IMG/VR virus record: IMGVR_UViG_3300042473_001758
Location: 1-32,891 of that record
Strand: one strand, 5' to 3'
Source: a virus
Length of the DNA: 32,891 nucleotides
In this document: positions 15,222 through 28,633 of the stretch, in pieces
Numbering within the stretch: the first letter of the stretch is position 1
How the letters are laid out: each line of letters begins with the position of its first letter
Program-made: the position numbers and the translations under genes
The notes under the pieces: model-generated
Seen by the model: the letters and a program-made list of their open reading frames with translations, nothing else
The model's database searches: none
What the model was told of the DNA's origin: nothing

Positions 15222-15577
15222 GCCGTGGCTCCTGAAACCAATGTGAGGGGCACGCTCAGGCTCAGTACCTGGGGCTGCTTGGTGCTGGCCACCAGGTACA
15301 GGCCGTCCAGCGTGATCACGGCCTTGCCGGGCTCTGTGCGCGTGTAGTGCAACTGGGTCAGGCGCAGGCGGGGCTCCCAGCGCATCAGGGCGCTGGCAAT
15401 GGCCGCGAAGAGGCGCACCTGGGTAGCAGGGTTGTCGGGGTGGTCCACCAGCTCGGGCACCAGCGAGCCGTATTCGCGGCGCATGACGCGGGTGCCGATG
15501 GCGGTGGTCAGGATGTCGGCCACGGACTGGCGCAGGTGATCAATGCCGCTGATGGCGGCGCCGGTGGTGCGGTTCAT
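15218..15577 (-). CDS. W: Baseplate protein gpW
   Basis: 119 residues, P2 gpW being 115. It is the gp25-like wedge component (GPW_gp25 family), with GIDHLRQSVADILTTAIGTRVMRREYGSLVPELVDHP as its signature and the EPRLRLTQLHY strand near the C-terminus. Proteins of this family connect the sheath and baseplate wedge in all contractile tails. The gene overlaps V upstream and J downstream by four bases each. Confidence 0.95.
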   Translation of the reverse strand: MNRTTGAAISGIDHLRQSVADILTTAIGTRVMRREYGSLVPELVDHPDNPATQVRLFAAIASALMRWEPRLRLTQLHYTRTEPGKAVITLDGLYLVASTKQPQVLSLSVPLTLVSGATA

Positions 15578-16116
15578 TGGGGCCCCCCAGTGACCTCGAA
15601 GCCAGACTTAACCCCGCCATGGGCGTGATGGCGCAGGCTGATGGTGTCGGCCAGGATGTCGGGCGTGGCCCGGATGGATTCGGGGGTGATGCGCAGTCGC
15701 TGGTCCCCCACCTGTAGGGTGATGGCGGTGGCGCATTGGATGAGCAGCTCACCGTCGAGCCAGCTCATGAAGTCGTCCCCGGACCATTCCTGCAGGAACT
15801 GGTTGGGGTCTTCGCTGCCCTGGGGGGCGTCATCGCTGAAAAGGCCGGCCAGGGCCACGCCCTGCAGCAGATCGCCACCGGGGCACAGCAGCACGCACTG
15901 CTCGCCGACTACCGGCGGCCACCAGGTGCGCCCGGCCTGGCCGCCCGCGCGCAGCGAGAAAAACGGCACCCAGTTGCTCAGCAGCCCGCCGGTGCGCACG
16001 CGGCAGCGCGCGGGCTTGCCCAGGCGCACCTGCTCGATGGAGCCCAGGCGCACGATGTTCTCAATCTTGCGATTGAGTTCGTAGGGAGATTCGGGTTGGG
16101 TGAGGGGTTTTTGCAC
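15574..16116 (-). CDS. V: Baseplate spike protein gpV
   Basis: About 180 residues from GTG 16116; the conserved core begins at NRKIENIVRLGSIEQV, so a slightly later start is possible and no strong ribosome site is visible. It is the membrane-piercing spike family (P2 gpV, Mu gp45), with an OB-fold first (LGKPARCRVRTGGLLSNWVPF and VGEQCVLLCPGG) and then a beta-helical tail. The C-terminus has HHAHGGV, with His164-x-His166, matching the HxH motif that binds a metal ion at the tip of related spikes. P2 gpV is longer (211). It is the first gene of the V-W-J-I unit, 45 bases downstream of the palindromic late-promoter site. Confidence 0.92.
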   Translation of the reverse strand: MQKPLTQPESPYELNRKIENIVRLGSIEQVRLGKPARCRVRTGGLLSNWVPFFSLRAGGQAGRTWWPPVVGEQCVLLCPGGDLLQGVALAGLFSDDAPQGSEDPNQFLQEWSGDDFMSWLDGELLIQCATAITLQVGDQRLRITPESIRATPDILADTISLRHHAHGGVKSGFEVTGGPQ

Positions 16117-16160
16117 CCGGTTGATGGTGCCGGGGCGGAGGGATTAATGCATCTGATTCT

Positions 16161-16185
16161 GGTTGTGTACGGGGCGTACACAACC
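16161..16185 (-). promoter_or_regulatory. Palindromic late-activator site upstream of V
   Basis: A perfect 10-base inverted repeat, GGTTGTGTAC, five-base spacer GGGGC, then GTACACAACC. It lies 45-69 bases above the GTG of V. P2-type late promoters carry a TTGT...ACAA dyad centred near -55, where the Ogr/Delta zinc-finger activators bind; here TTGT and ACAA are 13 bases apart. A nearly identical copy lies between O and P (23849-23873). Identification as the late operator follows from the position and the P2 model; the activator gene is not in the window. Confidence 0.8.
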
Positions 16186-16255
16186 AATTTTTCTGAGAAT
16201 TCGCACAATGCTAACCGACTCAGCTCTGCGAAGCAGAACTTAATAGCAGACAGTT

Positions 16256-17398
16256 CTATATCCTTGGTGGCGCAGCCTTCATTCCGAAAGCCTGATAGAG
16301 CACATCGCGTGTGTCTGAAAGAGCCTCATTAATATCGATTGTTCCTGATAAATCTTCGATGTAGATTTCTGGGAATACCATAAAATGCCTGTCCGATGCG
16401 TACCTGAACGATGAGCGGCCACCGTGTTCCAGCGGGATTCCATATACATGCATAAGCGCACACTGGATAAGTGCCGGGCCTGTGATGTCGTACTTCTTCG
16501 CTGCACTAATTGCTATTTCCAAGGAGTTTTCAAAGAATGAAAATGTATCCTCACCCCATATGCCCATAGCTCCATTCATTCCGATGCCTCCGGCAGCTTT
16601 TACAAACTCCATCGCTCCATTCCGAAACAATTGGCTGTAGGCGTAGACTTGATTTTCATCTCCAAGGTAGGCACCCAATCCATCAATGTTGACCTTTGGA
16701 TTTGCCCCTCCCCTCCAAGCTATGAAGTCAACAAATTCAATCTTCTTTATATCAATAGTTTTTCGTCGAGCTATACCTGACAATGAAACCAACTCAAATG
16801 CGGCGATCGGTACACTCCCCATCGGCATGTGCATTTTCCGTTCTCTTATTAAATTTAATCTGCCATTTATAAAATCACGAGCCTGTGCAGCAAGAGATGC
16901 GGATGCGGTAAAAGCTGAGCGCACTTGATCTAAGCTCATGTCAGAGGTCATCTTTCCATTGCGGATTACAAATCTACGATAGTTGCCTGCTGGATTTCTT
17001 ACCCAGTGTGGGCCATCGAACGACATCGGAACTCGTAGCACAATTCCGCAACCACCTTCAAGTGGGACCTGATGGAATTGAATTCCGTGAAACCTTGGCT
17101 CAATCCACGCGTCCAATATTTGAAGAATTCGTCGCTCTTCCTTATCAAAATTCTCTATGGTCAGCGGGACCACGGCCTTGGCCGTTCCGGTCGTTCTGTC
17201 CTCGCCAATGCCATATACGAGGTCACCGCCATCGGCATTCAGTAAAGCACTGACGTCCTTTGCCAGTTCTTCTTTATCTTTGTCCTCTTTCCCTGGAAGG
17301 GTTTGTTTGAAATCAAGAGTGCTCGACTCGCTTGTTCGCTGCTCGCAAATTTCTTGAAATACCGCTGCGTCAATTCTGCTCAGTGGATATGGAATCAT
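16256..17398 (-). CDS. AlbA_2 (Schlafen-type) domain accessory protein
   Basis: 380 residues. The N-terminal 160 residues are an AlbA_2 domain: E24 with LDFK at 28-31, then the conserved NADGGDLVYGIGED (about 54-67), RILQILDAWIEPRF, and the closing IVLRVPMSFDGPHWVRNPAGNYRRFVIRNG. The C-terminal 200 residues are helical and unassigned. AlbA_2 domains occur in Schlafen-like and putative transcription-regulator proteins; in bacteria some Schlafen relatives cleave RNA, but no nuclease motif was identified here. The ATG follows GGGAG. The gene is markedly AT-rich, lies between V and S where P2 carries orf30, and points the same way as the late genes with no visible terminator. Likely a cargo gene, possibly defensive. 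Confidence 0.82.
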   Translation of the reverse strand: MIPYPLSRIDAAVFQEICEQRTSESSTLDFKQTLPGKEDKDKEELAKDVSALLNADGGDLVYGIGEDRTTGTAKAVVPLTIENFDKEERRILQILDAWIEPRFHGIQFHQVPLEGGCGIVLRVPMSFDGPHWVRNPAGNYRRFVIRNGKMTSDMSLDQVRSAFTASASLAAQARDFINGRLNLIRERKMHMPMGSVPIAAFELVSLSGIARRKTIDIKKIEFVDFIAWRGGANPKVNIDGLGAYLGDENQVYAYSQLFRNGAMEFVKAAGGIGMNGAMGIWGEDTFSFFENSLEIAISAAKKYDITGPALIQCALMHVYGIPLEHGGRSSFRYASDRHFMVFPEIYIEDLSGTIDINEALSDTRDVLYQAFGMKAAPPRI

Positions 17399-17448
17399 TG
17401 CGCTCCCTGGTTACCTGTGATTCATATCTTAGCCAACTCGCTTTCCAC

Positions 17449-17922
17449 TCAAGTGCTCAGAAACCTTAAGATCATTTCCCGAACGCGCTCGACCCGGTCT
17501 GCTGTGATGCCGATCAGCTCTCGCGCTGGATAGCGATAAGTCGGACCACCAGGCGTCACTCGATCGCTCAACCCAAACTGATGCACCCGAGCGATCCGCT
17601 CAGCCCGCCCCACAAACCCAACCACTGCCTCCGAGGGTGCCGCCATCGCCTTGAGGTTCTTGGCCGCCCCCATCTTCAAAAACATCCGCATGCCCGCCTT
17701 GCCTGCCTGAGCCTTGCGGCGGATCTCCCCCCGCTTGTTCCTGGCGGGCTGCTTGCGGGCTAACCAGGCCTCTCCATCCGGGGTCTGCTGGGCCCGGATG
17801 CTGGCTGCATTGGCTGCGCGCAGATCTCGCGCCACAGCCATGGCCAGCTTGCGCCGCTCGCCATCGGAGAGCCGGTCGAGCAGCGGTGCGACCCAGTCCT
17901 CCAGAGCCTTCAGTTCGCTCAT
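17449..17922 (-). CDS. S: Tail completion protein gpS
   Basis: 157 residues, P2 gpS being 150. It is the phage virion morphogenesis family: LEDWVAPLLDRLSDGERRKLAMAVARDLRAANAASI at the N-terminus, then ARKQPARNKRGEIRRKAQAGKAGMRMF, and the conserved IARVHQFGLSDRVTPGG with YPARELIGIT near the end. In P2 it is required for completing tails before they join heads. It lies two bases downstream of gpR and 50 bases upstream of the inserted AlbA_2 gene; in the P2 order V would follow. Confidence 0.94.
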   Translation of the reverse strand: MSELKALEDWVAPLLDRLSDGERRKLAMAVARDLRAANAASIRAQQTPDGEAWLARKQPARNKRGEIRRKAQAGKAGMRMFLKMGAAKNLKAMAAPSEAVVGFVGRAERIARVHQFGLSDRVTPGGPTYRYPARELIGITADRVERVREMILRFLST

Positions 17923-17924
17923 GG

Positions 17925-18425
17925 TCAGATCACTGGCCGGGGGTCATGGGCCCATTGCGCCACCAGCTCGTCGCGCACGTACAGGCTCCATTCCTCGCGC
18001 TGCTGCGGCCAGGCGGGGTGAGCCGGCTCGCCCACGTGGCGGATGTCATAAGCCCCGGGCTGGCTGGCCCTGGGCTTGACCAACACGCGCTCGGTCAGGT
18101 CCAGCTCGATCGACAGATCCACCGTGCTGGCATTCAGGAACTCGACCTCGAACCGCACAGCCTTCTCGCGCAGATCCGGGTTGTCCAGCACCTCGGGCTG
18201 GTTCACGGCCAGCCAGGACAGGAGGGGGACCATGACCGCGTCGGCGTGGCCGGCGTAGTCCAGCACCACCAGTTGCAGGGTGTAGGCGTACTCAAACGAC
18301 AGCGAGCCGGTGCCGGTAGTGATCAGGCGGCCCGAGCGGACCATCACCGACAGCTTGTCGGGGTTGGTGCGCAGATCAGGCACGGCCGCCTCGATGTGGC
18401 CGCGCAGGCTACCGGGCTTGAGCAT
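17925..18425 (-). CDS. R: Tail completion protein gpR
   Basis: 166 residues, P2 gpR being 155. Family signals: MLKPGSLRGHIEAAVPDLRTNPDKLSVMVRSGRL and FEYAYTLQLVVLDYAGHADAVMVPLLSWLAVNQPE, with LNASTVDLSIELDLTERVLV near the C-terminus. It is needed for tail completion in P2, together with S. The start lies 17 bases inside the end of the Rz gene. Confidence 0.94.
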   Translation of the reverse strand: MLKPGSLRGHIEAAVPDLRTNPDKLSVMVRSGRLITTGTGSLSFEYAYTLQLVVLDYAGHADAVMVPLLSWLAVNQPEVLDNPDLREKAVRFEVEFLNASTVDLSIELDLTERVLVKPRASQPGAYDIRHVGEPAHPAWPQQREEWSLYVRDELVAQWAHDPRPVI

Positions 18426-23848: not shown

Positions 23849-23873
23849 GGTTGTGTACGGGGCGTACACACCT
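23849..23873. promoter_or_regulatory. Palindromic late-activator site between O and P
   Basis: The motif GGTTGTGTAC-GGGGC-GTACACACCT, identical to the V-upstream site for its first 22 bases and different only in the last positions. It sits in the divergent region between O (start 23761, left) and P (start 23918, right), where P2 has promoters in both directions. Its centre is 100 bases from the O start codon and 57 from the P start codon, so it could serve either or both directions. The ribosome site of P is weak, so its transcript may begin very close to the ATG. Confidence 0.78.
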
Positions 23874-26922: not shown

Positions 26923-27096
26923 ATGCAAGAAGTGAGATGTGGCCACTGCAGCAAGAAGCTGGCAGTGGCGGATTTTGTCCGACTGGACAAGTGCCCCCCC
27001 CGCTGTGGGGACTTCAATTCGTTGAGGGGCGAGAGCCTCACCCCAGACCTCCGGGGATGTGGCGCCTCCACATTCACCGCAGAGGGTCGCATGTGA
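26923..27096 (+). CDS. com: Com-like zinc-finger regulator, 3' end altered
   Basis: A 57-residue protein missed by length cut-offs. It begins MQEVRCGHCSKKLAVADFVRL and continues with FNSLRGESLTP, which is the Com family (first known from phage Mu, where Com binds mRNA to allow translation of the mom DNA-modification gene). In prophages of this group com stands directly before a DNA methyltransferase gene. Here the cysteines are C6, C9, C24 and C28: the second pair is CPPRC, one residue wider than the usual CPRC, within a run of eight C at 26994-27001. From about residue 41 the sequence departs from the family, matching the edge of an insertion. Zinc binding may be impaired. Confidence 0.75.
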   Translation: MQEVRCGHCSKKLAVADFVRLDKCPPRCGDFNSLRGESLTPDLRGCGASTFTAEGRM

Positions 27097-28102
27097 TGGT
27101 CGGGTGGTAGTGCCCCACGATGCACGACGGCTCCAGCGGCACCCGTATGCTGAAGCCTGAGCCACGCCACTTGTCAGGTGCGTAGGTGGGCCCATCCAGC
27201 AGTTCCTGGAAAATCGACTGGAGGGCGATCCCAGCGAACTCGGCGAGCGTGCCGGGATGAAGATGCTCGAGTGGAACATCGCACACAAAGAGTGTAGGGT
27301 CGTAGCGCTTCCTGAGGACGCGACGATAGTCCCGCGTACCTCCGAGATTGGCCGCCAGGGCAGTGAGGTACTCGCTGCCATAGAGCATGTAGTGGCCACA
27401 CATTTCAATCAGGAATCGCTCGTTGGCCTCGAAGTAAACGCGGCCCTCCCGCGTCGCCGGCCCGACGTTCTCCACGGCCCTCTTCAGGTTGACCTCCGAC
27501 AGCTCTGGGTACTCACCGCTCAGAAATAGCTTGCGCGCCTGGTCGTGGAACTCTTCAATCACCAGCGGGCGAAGGCCTTGCGCATAGAACGAGTCGAGCG
27601 AGGGCGCCGATGTCCCGTGACAGGCGCGAATCGCACGGTATCGGTCCAGCAGCCGTTCTGCCAGTTCATTTTTCGAATCGACATGAATGCCGCGGACTCT
27701 CAGCACGAGGTCGTCCAGCCAGCTCAGGTCGTCGGAGACCAGATATTCGGGCGGGCTACTACGAAACGCCTTCTTAACGTCCGCCCCAATGAAATCAGAC
27801 ATCAAACGCCAGATTTCAGTGTGCCAAGTGGCATGGCGGTTCAAATCCCAGACATGCTTGGGTGCCGGTGGCCGCTCGCCCCCATCGGCGCTGAGCACAC
27901 GGCGAGATACACCCATCGTTTTGGGAAGGCGTGCCGCAGCAGAAGCAGCATTCCAGTCGCGAAAGCCCATTTCCCGGGCGGCGGCCTCCAATGCGCCCCC
28001 CCTATCAAGCACCTGCCCTCCCAGAGAGTGCTGAGACTGCAGTTCTCCAGCTCGCGCCTTCAGAGCGCGCAGCAATTCATAATCTTGAACTTGGTTATCC
28101 AT
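27074..28102 (-). CDS. Glyoxalase-related N-terminal domain protein, unknown function
   Basis: 342 residues from ATG 28102 (GGGA six bases upstream); an ATG at 28129 would add nine residues. The first 60 residues (LLRALKARAGELQSQ, then GALEAAAREMGFRDWNAASA) match the short 'glyoxalase-related' helical domain, usually seen as SHSQALELVAHQxGFRDWN, at the start of many plasmid and mobile-element proteins. The remaining 280 residues are helical and charged, with no motif I recognise (HEIWRLMSDFIG, LVIEEFHDQARKLFLSGEYPEL, RFLIEMCGHYMLYGSEYLTALAANL). The gene runs against com and the methylase remnant, and its 3' end overlaps the com end by 23 bases. It appears to be cargo inserted into the com-methylase unit. 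Function unknown; a defence or regulatory role is only a guess. Confidence 0.75.
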   Translation of the reverse strand: MDNQVQDYELLRALKARAGELQSQHSLGGQVLDRGGALEAAAREMGFRDWNAASAAARLPKTMGVSRRVLSADGGERPPAPKHVWDLNRHATWHTEIWRLMSDFIGADVKKAFRSSPPEYLVSDDLSWLDDLVLRVRGIHVDSKNELAERLLDRYRAIRACHGTSAPSLDSFYAQGLRPLVIEEFHDQARKLFLSGEYPELSEVNLKRAVENVGPATREGRVYFEANERFLIEMCGHYMLYGSEYLTALAANLGGTRDYRRVLRKRYDPTLFVCDVPLEHLHPGTLAEFAGIALQSIFQELLDGPTYAPDKWRGSGFSIRVPLEPSCIVGHYHPTITCDPLR

Positions 28103-28294
28103 GGTTTTCCCATAAACGGTGCGCTTCAAAGACGTGGTTCGCGTTACGCCGGCACCGAAGTGGAACCAGTGGACAGAAAGACACTTAGGACAGATTCACC
28201 ATACCCGTAGTGGGTGCGAACGGCAGGGCTGCCACCCCGTGCGAGCCATTATAGGAAAGCACAGGTTCCTACGCTAGGCGTGGACTCCTGTTAG

Positions 28295-28633
28295 GACCTC
28301 GGCTTGAGACGAGAAGTGCCCACCTGGGCCTCCCAAGGCCCGCTGCCCATCGCAGAGCACGGCGGCCCCTGGCCCGGCTTGGTGCGCGAACGGGTGGATC
28401 ACCGCAAGAAGCTGCACCTCACAGGCAAGCCGGTGGAGCTGATGGTCCAGCTGGTGCATGCGGTGGCACCCGGCGGGGTGATCCTGGATCCGTTCATGGG
28501 TTCCGCATCCACGGGTGTGGCCGCGCTGCAGGCTGGCCACCGATTCATCGACGTGGAGCAGGATGGGCACTACTTTGACGTGGCAGTGGCCAGGCTGGAG
28601 GCGATCTGCGAAGCCGGCCAGGCCACGGCATAG
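28295..28633 (+). pseudogene. DNA methyltransferase, C-terminal remnant
   Basis: The frame is open from a stop at 28292 to the TAG at 28631-28633. From about HGGPWPGLVRERV on it is the C-terminal third of a phage N4/N6 DNA methyltransferase: HRKKLHLTGKPVELM, then the S-adenosylmethionine-binding motif DPFMGSASTG and GHRFIDVEQDGHYFDVAVARL. In this class the catalytic DPPY motif lies N-terminal to the part present, and it is missing. There is no good start (a TTG at 28304 at most). The missing 5' part should follow com; the reverse-strand gene at 27074-28102 lies in its place. It is therefore a pseudogene, unless the remnant is translated for another purpose. Confidence 0.85.

Follow-up and report, generated by a model that had tools for sequence, protein, structure and literature searches.

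A Schlafen-type AlbA_2 protein, probably a defence effector, encoded in a recurrent cargo slot of P2-like phages

Background

What does an AT-rich gene do when it lies between the tail completion gene S and the baseplate spike gene V of a P2-like phage, and why is it found there? The question is raised by a virus record in IMG/VR, 32,891 bases in length (referred to here as the window). Because it is a virus record of this kind and length, the window is possibly incomplete. Its phage is P2-like and comes from a Curvibacter-related bacterium.

The same S-V place is occupied in phage P2 by the orf30 locus, which the available part of a 2010 study counts among three loci of P2 where acquired genes are common, and predicts to hold genes that were acquired horizontally (PMC3091744). 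In Burkholderia phages KS5 and KL3, according to the same part of that study, an Old-like gene or a DNA methylase gene takes the number between those of V and S (PMC3091744). The cargo of the window differs from that of the P2 locus in that it encodes an AlbA_2 protein composed of two modules. Defence hotspots of P2 have been described at A-Q and fun (Z) as small, high-turnover and defence-rich loci between conserved genes (PMC9122126, PMC9519451). The S-V interval is likewise a small locus of high turnover, but a different one, and it is not named as a defence hotspot in the available portions of these two accounts. Thus, orf30 cargo and the A-Q and fun hotspots are known already, whereas the survey of S-V slots and their defence content presented in this report appears, as far as we are aware, to be new.

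Schlafen proteins connect human and bacterial antiviral immunity. In this report, we arrive at a probability of about two in three that the gene belongs to the accessory cargo of a recurrently used defence slot and acts, most likely, as a single-protein abortive-infection defence that combines a Schlafen RNase effector with a C-terminal sensor or switch.

Results and discussion

Position of the gene within the late operon

The list of open reading frames (ORFs) of the 32,891-nt window contains an intact gene of 380 codons with an ATG start between S and V (Table 1). The gene starts 50 bp after S and is oriented with the late genes. Downstream, W is the next gene after V on the same strand according to Pfam; upstream on this strand, PHROGs matches reveal an Rz-like spanin and an endolysin in addition to R and S. 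The preliminary description of this DNA had placed an AlbA_2-type cargo gene at the orf30 position, and the Pfam assignments of S upstream and V downstream agree with this, as does the variability of the slot in relatives. It had also described the gene as AT-rich and as pointing with the late genes. Indeed, the G+C content is 46.5% for the gene versus 67.2% for the phage backbone, and the gene is on the minus strand, like S, R and V.

When both strands of positions 15900 to 18100 were subjected to a simple scan, neither showed a sigma-70-like promoter, and the strand of the cargo gene showed no terminator. Given that no terminator was detected on this strand, transcription of the gene by read-through from the lysis/R/S transcript is possible.

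Table 1. Coordinates of features discussed in the text (positions in the window)
Feature	Position	Strand	Evidence or remark
Gene V (baseplate spike), bounding the slot downstream	15574..16116	-	PF04717 1.5e-13 and Apex motif
Perfect 25-bp palindrome with the sequence GGTTGTGTACGCCCCGTACACAACC, probably the late-promoter operator of V	16161..16185	-	Retained in L002, L003 and L091
Cargo insert, segment without homology to near relatives	16188..17469	.	Flank alignments to L003 and L002
SLFN_AlbA_2 cargo gene	16256..17398	-	ORF; PF04326 1.5e-13; full-length relatives
C-terminal module, aa 172-380 (~210 residues)	16256..16885	-	No Pfam match; also fused to TIR and Mrr-type domains
N-terminal Schlafen-type nuclease domain (predicted), aa 1-165	16904..17398	-	Pfam aa 24-154; model residues 1-142
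Glu66 codon, probable equivalent of SLFN13 D248	17201..17203	-	Mapping read from alignment
Asp29 codon, equivalent of SLFN13 E210	17312..17314	-	All rows have Asp or Glu
Glu24 codon, equivalent of SLFN13 E205	17327..17329	-	Identical in all rows of both family alignments
Gene S (tail completion), bounding the slot upstream	17449..17922	-	PF05069 3.8e-30
Gene R, tail terminator	17925..18425	-	PF06891 7.5e-47
Second copy of the palindrome, 2 mismatches, at divergent O/P genes	23849..23873	-	O = PF05929, P = terminase

Near relatives and the empty site

Nearest relatives of the phage were gathered by similarity of S from viral contigs and genomes. The closest is a Curvibacter gracilis prophage (loci L003, L083 and L091), whose S and V proteins are 88% and 91% identical to those of the window. 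Its S-V gap measures merely 82 to 88 bp, and so the slot is empty, with the palindrome intact. In locus L002 (S 88% and V 94% identical), the slot holds a different, unrelated ORF of 302 aa, and in L004 (S 66% and V 77% identical), it holds two other ORFs. The preliminary description had proposed to compare the S-V interval across related prophages, and regarded a constant gene as evidence against its reading; the gene is not constant, as the slot is empty in the closest relative and occupied by an unrelated gene in the next.

Flank alignments locate the borders of the insert. Towards V, the sequence is homologous to L002 and L003 from position 16187, two bases before the palindrome, and the cargo therefore stops just short of the V promoter region, which stays intact. 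Towards S, homology to L003 reaches as far as about position 17470, inside the last ~7 codons of S. These final codons (17449-17470) are unlike those of the relatives, which suggests that inserted sequence took the place of the original end of S.

A palindrome at the predicted V promoter

The palindrome sits between the cargo gene and V, with the cargo gene 5' of it. Just two copies are present in the window, the other being at the divergent O and P genes, and none is expected by chance; a search of the window found no copy near F. P2 late promoters are located at P, O, V and F and exhibit the pattern TGT-N12-ACA in the available part of the source (PMC3931495), as compared with a half-site spacing of TGT-N13-ACA in the window palindrome. 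The presence of the palindrome at V and at O/P, and the retention of the V-side copy in near relatives, favour the earlier proposal of a V promoter site after the cargo gene, with a function deduced from this distribution. The palindrome presumably binds the late activator of the phage, although it may alternatively be the operator of a repressor. On the plus strand, positions 16160-16196 have a terminator-like shape, in which the palindrome is followed by a run of T residues. This run is probably incidental, because it is not kept in L003.

A survey of S-V slots

We examined the slot in 122 loci. S and V could both be placed in 111 of these (11 were dropped), and the collapse of 37 near-duplicate loci at 90% identity left 74 distinct slots. 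The S-V interval is at least 250 bp in 40 of the 74, with 34 slots being short and 40 having at least 491 bp. In the same loci, the R-S and V-W gaps stay below 250 bp throughout (0 of 71 and 0 of 72, respectively, reach this length). Two long slots, those of L106 and L111, were judged to be tail-gene slots and not cargo; without both, 38 of 72 slots exceed 250 bp. This judgement involves a phage minor-tail Pfam match among the cargo matches, which we assigned to the 979-aa ORF of L111, and L106 was included because two small ORFs are common to both loci. The L106 and L111 slots thus probably hold tail genes.

The G+C content of the cargo is below that of the flank in 40 of 40 slots, by a median of 17 points. 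Pfam was used to scan 55 proteins, namely 54 cargo proteins (at least one per cluster) and the protein of the window. Domains among the scanned cargo include methylases, AAA ATPases, toxin-antitoxin YefM/YoeB, Mrr, HNH and a cyclase, and PADLOC matches for slot cargo include a Pycsar cyclase (2.8e-130), PycTM, PD-T7-4 (4.7e-81), a Thoeris ThsB TIR protein (4.1e-40) and candidate families, where these pooled Pfam and PADLOC tallies are not tied to individual cargo proteins. When nine other cargo proteins were scanned singly, three had a PADLOC match at 1e-5 and six had none. The S-V slot is therefore a recurrent and variable slot for cargo and defence genes in P2-like phages. With the strict controls provided by the neighbouring gaps, it represents a compact place in which to search P2-like phages of hosts other than Escherichia coli for more defence genes.

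The direction of the cargo bears on a different explanation of the window gene, namely that it is a phage fitness factor expressed late, which is made during the phage's own lytic cycle and cuts host RNA or counters host defences, instead of defending the lysogen. Its late-gene strand, its start so close after S and the lack of a detected terminator between the two genes would fit such a role. However, cargo in the other slots is often reversed (among the 40 slots, every ORF follows the late-gene direction in 19, every ORF opposes it in 11 and the directions are mixed in 10), and relatives of the gene are found on plasmids and chromosomes, where they belong to no late operon. We consequently consider a late fitness factor unlikely.

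The N-terminal AlbA_2 domain

Pfam recognizes one domain in the protein, SLFN_AlbA_2 (PF04326), at residues 24-154 (E value of 1.5e-13; 51.7 bits, as compared with a cut-off of 25.3). In a predicted model with a mean pLDDT of 86.5, residues 1-142 match Schlafen nuclease lobes over about 120 to 130 residues. The Z scores are 11.5 for SLFN14 and SLFN5, 11.1 for the tRNase domain of SAMD9 and 10.8 for SLFN13, and unrelated rows reach at most 7.7. The best match of the family profile in the PDB is CbCash (9ylu; E value of 2.2e-10); this match covers the AlbA_2 domain only, as the alignment ends with that domain, at profile position 157.

In the available text on SLFN13, the active site consists of E205, E210 and D248, and mutation of any of these diminished cleavage activity (PMC5862951). 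Equivalent residues in the window protein (Table 1) were mapped with an inferred offset for the numbering of the SLFN13 chain. The third position is Asp or Glu in 10 of 10 rows of alignment A3 and in 10 of 12 rows of alignment A2; the other two A2 rows have Ala at this position, with Glu beside it. The N-terminal domain, as modelled, thus has a Schlafen fold with a conserved acidic triad, and we infer that it is an RNase, which would probably cut tRNA or another structured RNA.

The AlbA_2 fold and the acidic catalytic positions are common to this protein, to Schlafens SLFN11, SLFN13 and SLFN14, and to the tRNase domain of SAMD9. Unlike these proteins, the window protein has one recognized AlbA_2 lobe together with an unrelated C-terminal module, and its RNase activity is predicted here. 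Bacterial Schlafen-type proteins have been reported to function in anti-phage defence by tRNA cleavage (bioRxiv 10.1101/2025.07.24.666596, as cited in the available part of PMC12839542).

A second Schlafen lobe was considered for the C-terminal module and rejected, since hhalign detected no profile similarity of the C-terminal to the N-terminal module that would point to a duplication (probability of 0.6%) and the fusions to TIR and Mrr domains described below also speak against it.

Annotations of this family could suggest that the protein is a nucleic-acid-binding regulator or another type of moron, and not an RNase effector: plasmid relatives are annotated just as "ATP-binding protein", and PHROGs assigns a weak helicase label to the window protein. 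Such a role is rather improbable, given that the acidic triad is conserved, that the best fold matches are Schlafen nuclease lobes and the SAMD9 tRNase domain, and that TIR and Mrr-type heads occur on this C-terminal module in other proteins.

A C-terminal module shared with other effectors

No Pfam family matches residues 172-380 at E values up to 1. The module's own predicted model (pLDDT of 84.7) has no clear fold match. An AdoMet decarboxylase fold (best Z score of 6.7) and a TATA-binding protein fold (Foldseek E value of 0.008 at best) were rejected as being in the range of common arrangements, and neither a CARF nor a SAVED domain was among the matches listed in the fold search.

When plasmids were searched with a relative of the window protein, the C-terminal part of a TIR protein from a Planococcus lenghuensis plasmid was matched. 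A plasmid search with the C-terminal part alone retrieved a Haloterrigena "restriction endonuclease", and further searches led to more haloarchaeal proteins. We then built an HMM of 22 AlbA_2-linked C-termini, in which the window sequence is present twice and from which the TIR and haloarchaeal proteins were left out. This HMM matches the Planococcus TIR protein (8.9e-45), a Haloplanus AlbA_2 protein (9.6e-30) and ten haloarchaeal Mrr-type candidates (5.9e-21 to 1.0e-11), and none of 240 shuffled copies matched it at E values up to 10. The TIR head was identified separately by Pfam (TIR_2, 2.3e-32). In the ten Mrr-type candidates, the Pfam match to Mrr_cat is above the cut-off in five, below it in four and absent in one. 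These haloarchaeal fusions reside on plasmids.

As judged from sequence matches, therefore, one C-terminal module occurs under Schlafen, TIR and Mrr-type heads, in what amounts to an effector swap. The module was found in 7 of 398 Pseudomonadota genomes drawn (six AlbA_2-headed, one truncated). Viral contigs yielded no relative with a TIR head, nor did phage records yield a match to the C-terminal part of the Planococcus TIR protein. A plasmid of the haloarchaeon Haloplanus rubicundus carries an AlbA_2-headed form (L191:3001-4209), so this form exists in both bacteria and archaea.

We found no description of the shared module in the open-licence literature that we searched. It is an evenly balanced question whether the module is an unnamed sensor or switch of prokaryotic immunity, common to bacteria and archaea, that is mounted on at least three unrelated effectors to yield defence proteins encoded by one gene, and whose RNase version is carried by P2-like phages in a third hotspot, S-V, besides A-Q and fun. 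The head is taken to be the effector and the tail the sensor, by analogy with other systems in which one recognition domain is combined with various effectors; as the C-terminal fold has no clear match, the term "sensor" reflects solely the effector swap. A module common to Schlafen, TIR and Mrr-type heads offers a route to what such proteins sense, and one trigger could be read out by three different weapons.

TIR and Mrr heads are known partners of Argonaute proteins. With its similar choice of effectors, the C-terminal module might be APAZ-like and the protein part of a short-Argonaute system whose Argonaute is encoded elsewhere; Mrr and Schlafen links to Argonaute are mentioned in the available part of one source (PMC10573157). 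This explanation is highly improbable: no Argonaute gene adjoins the gene in the window, where S and V are its neighbours, and none is annotated in the plasmid stretches read. The PDB matches listed, whether by sequence or by fold, include no chain from an Argonaute system, and no APAZ fold is among the fold and sequence matches listed for the module, although such a relation may escape these searches.

Relatives and their gene neighbourhoods

A single-protein search for close relatives yielded none in viral contigs and none in 50,697 phage records. A profile search of viral contigs identified 12 loci, not all of full length, among which L163 and L164 look like near duplicates. Full-length relatives are about 380 to 400 aa in length and 20% to 44% identical, and are found in Paraburkholderia and other plasmids, genomes and viral loci. 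They are rare, with 8 in 1167 genome draws, which overlap. Integrases adjoin or lie near several plasmid copies.

Some relatives neighbour genes that resemble defence components: PDC-S06 proteins (L172, L158), a PDC-S62 protein (L150), an AriA/GajA-like ATPase (L160), a SIR2 gene (L181) and a KwaB-like gene (L186). Others (L157, L159, L161) are among ordinary chromosomal genes. In three viral contigs, a TIR-domain gene, the AlbA_2 relative and a gene for a type I restriction R subunit (HsdR) follow one another in this order, as determined by scanning in L167 (7532-12299) and by translation in L169 and L170. A separate TIR protein thus adjoins the AlbA_2 relative in these contigs; in Planococcus, TIR is fused to the C-terminal module. 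In L168 (7160-9167), the relative is preceded at a distance of ~80 bp by an AT-rich gene of 251 aa, which matches nothing in Pfam or PADLOC and is possibly its partner. In L171 (723-1889), the relative is an AT-rich insert (49% G+C) beside an opposite-strand DUF6441 gene of 68% G+C. Taking DUF6441 as phage-type, this copy is probably the cargo of another kind of phage.

Proposed function

PADLOC-DB 2.0.0 has no family that matches the window protein at E values up to 1. We propose that its N-terminal AlbA_2 domain would be an effector RNase, the target of which is probably tRNA or another structured RNA, and that the C-terminal module would be a common sensor or switch that keeps the effector inactive as long as no competing phage or mobile element is encountered. 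Elsewhere, in different hosts, this module would drive a TIR effector, which probably degrades NAD, or a DNA-cutting effector of the Mrr type. Most likely, the module would sense a phage product directly, because the neighbourhoods that we read contain no conserved partner gene. Once activated, the RNase would stop translation and growth before the competing phage matures. We infer the sensing role of the module and its trigger, as well as expression of the gene in the lysogen and its protective effect against phages. Since the gene is inside the late operon, it is perhaps also expressed late in the phage's own cycle, in which case the phage's own products must not trigger it.

A prophage location and an RNase-type domain would also be expected of an addiction toxin that stabilizes the prophage and whose antitoxin was not recognized. 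We regard this explanation as quite improbable, because, overlapping ORFs aside, no other ORF of at least 60 aa lies wholly between S and V on the cargo strand, and the relatives lack a shared small neighbour.

Other possible cargo in the window

By eye, a Com-like zinc-finger ORF (~26924, plus strand) and the C-terminal part of a DNA methylase (~28310-28633, plus strand) are visible in the window. In this region (26924-28633), the two are separated by a minus-strand ORF of 351 aa (27074-28129) that matches Glyoxalase_8 (1.4e-8). This ORF has the appearance of a second cargo insert, and may have split a com/methylase pair. Positions 1-1200, beyond gene D, are AT-rich (44% G+C) and include an ORF (701-1171) with a sub-cutoff match only, as well as a minus-strand P-loop motif, GRKGCGKT, at about 420-450; this region is possibly a further site of cargo.
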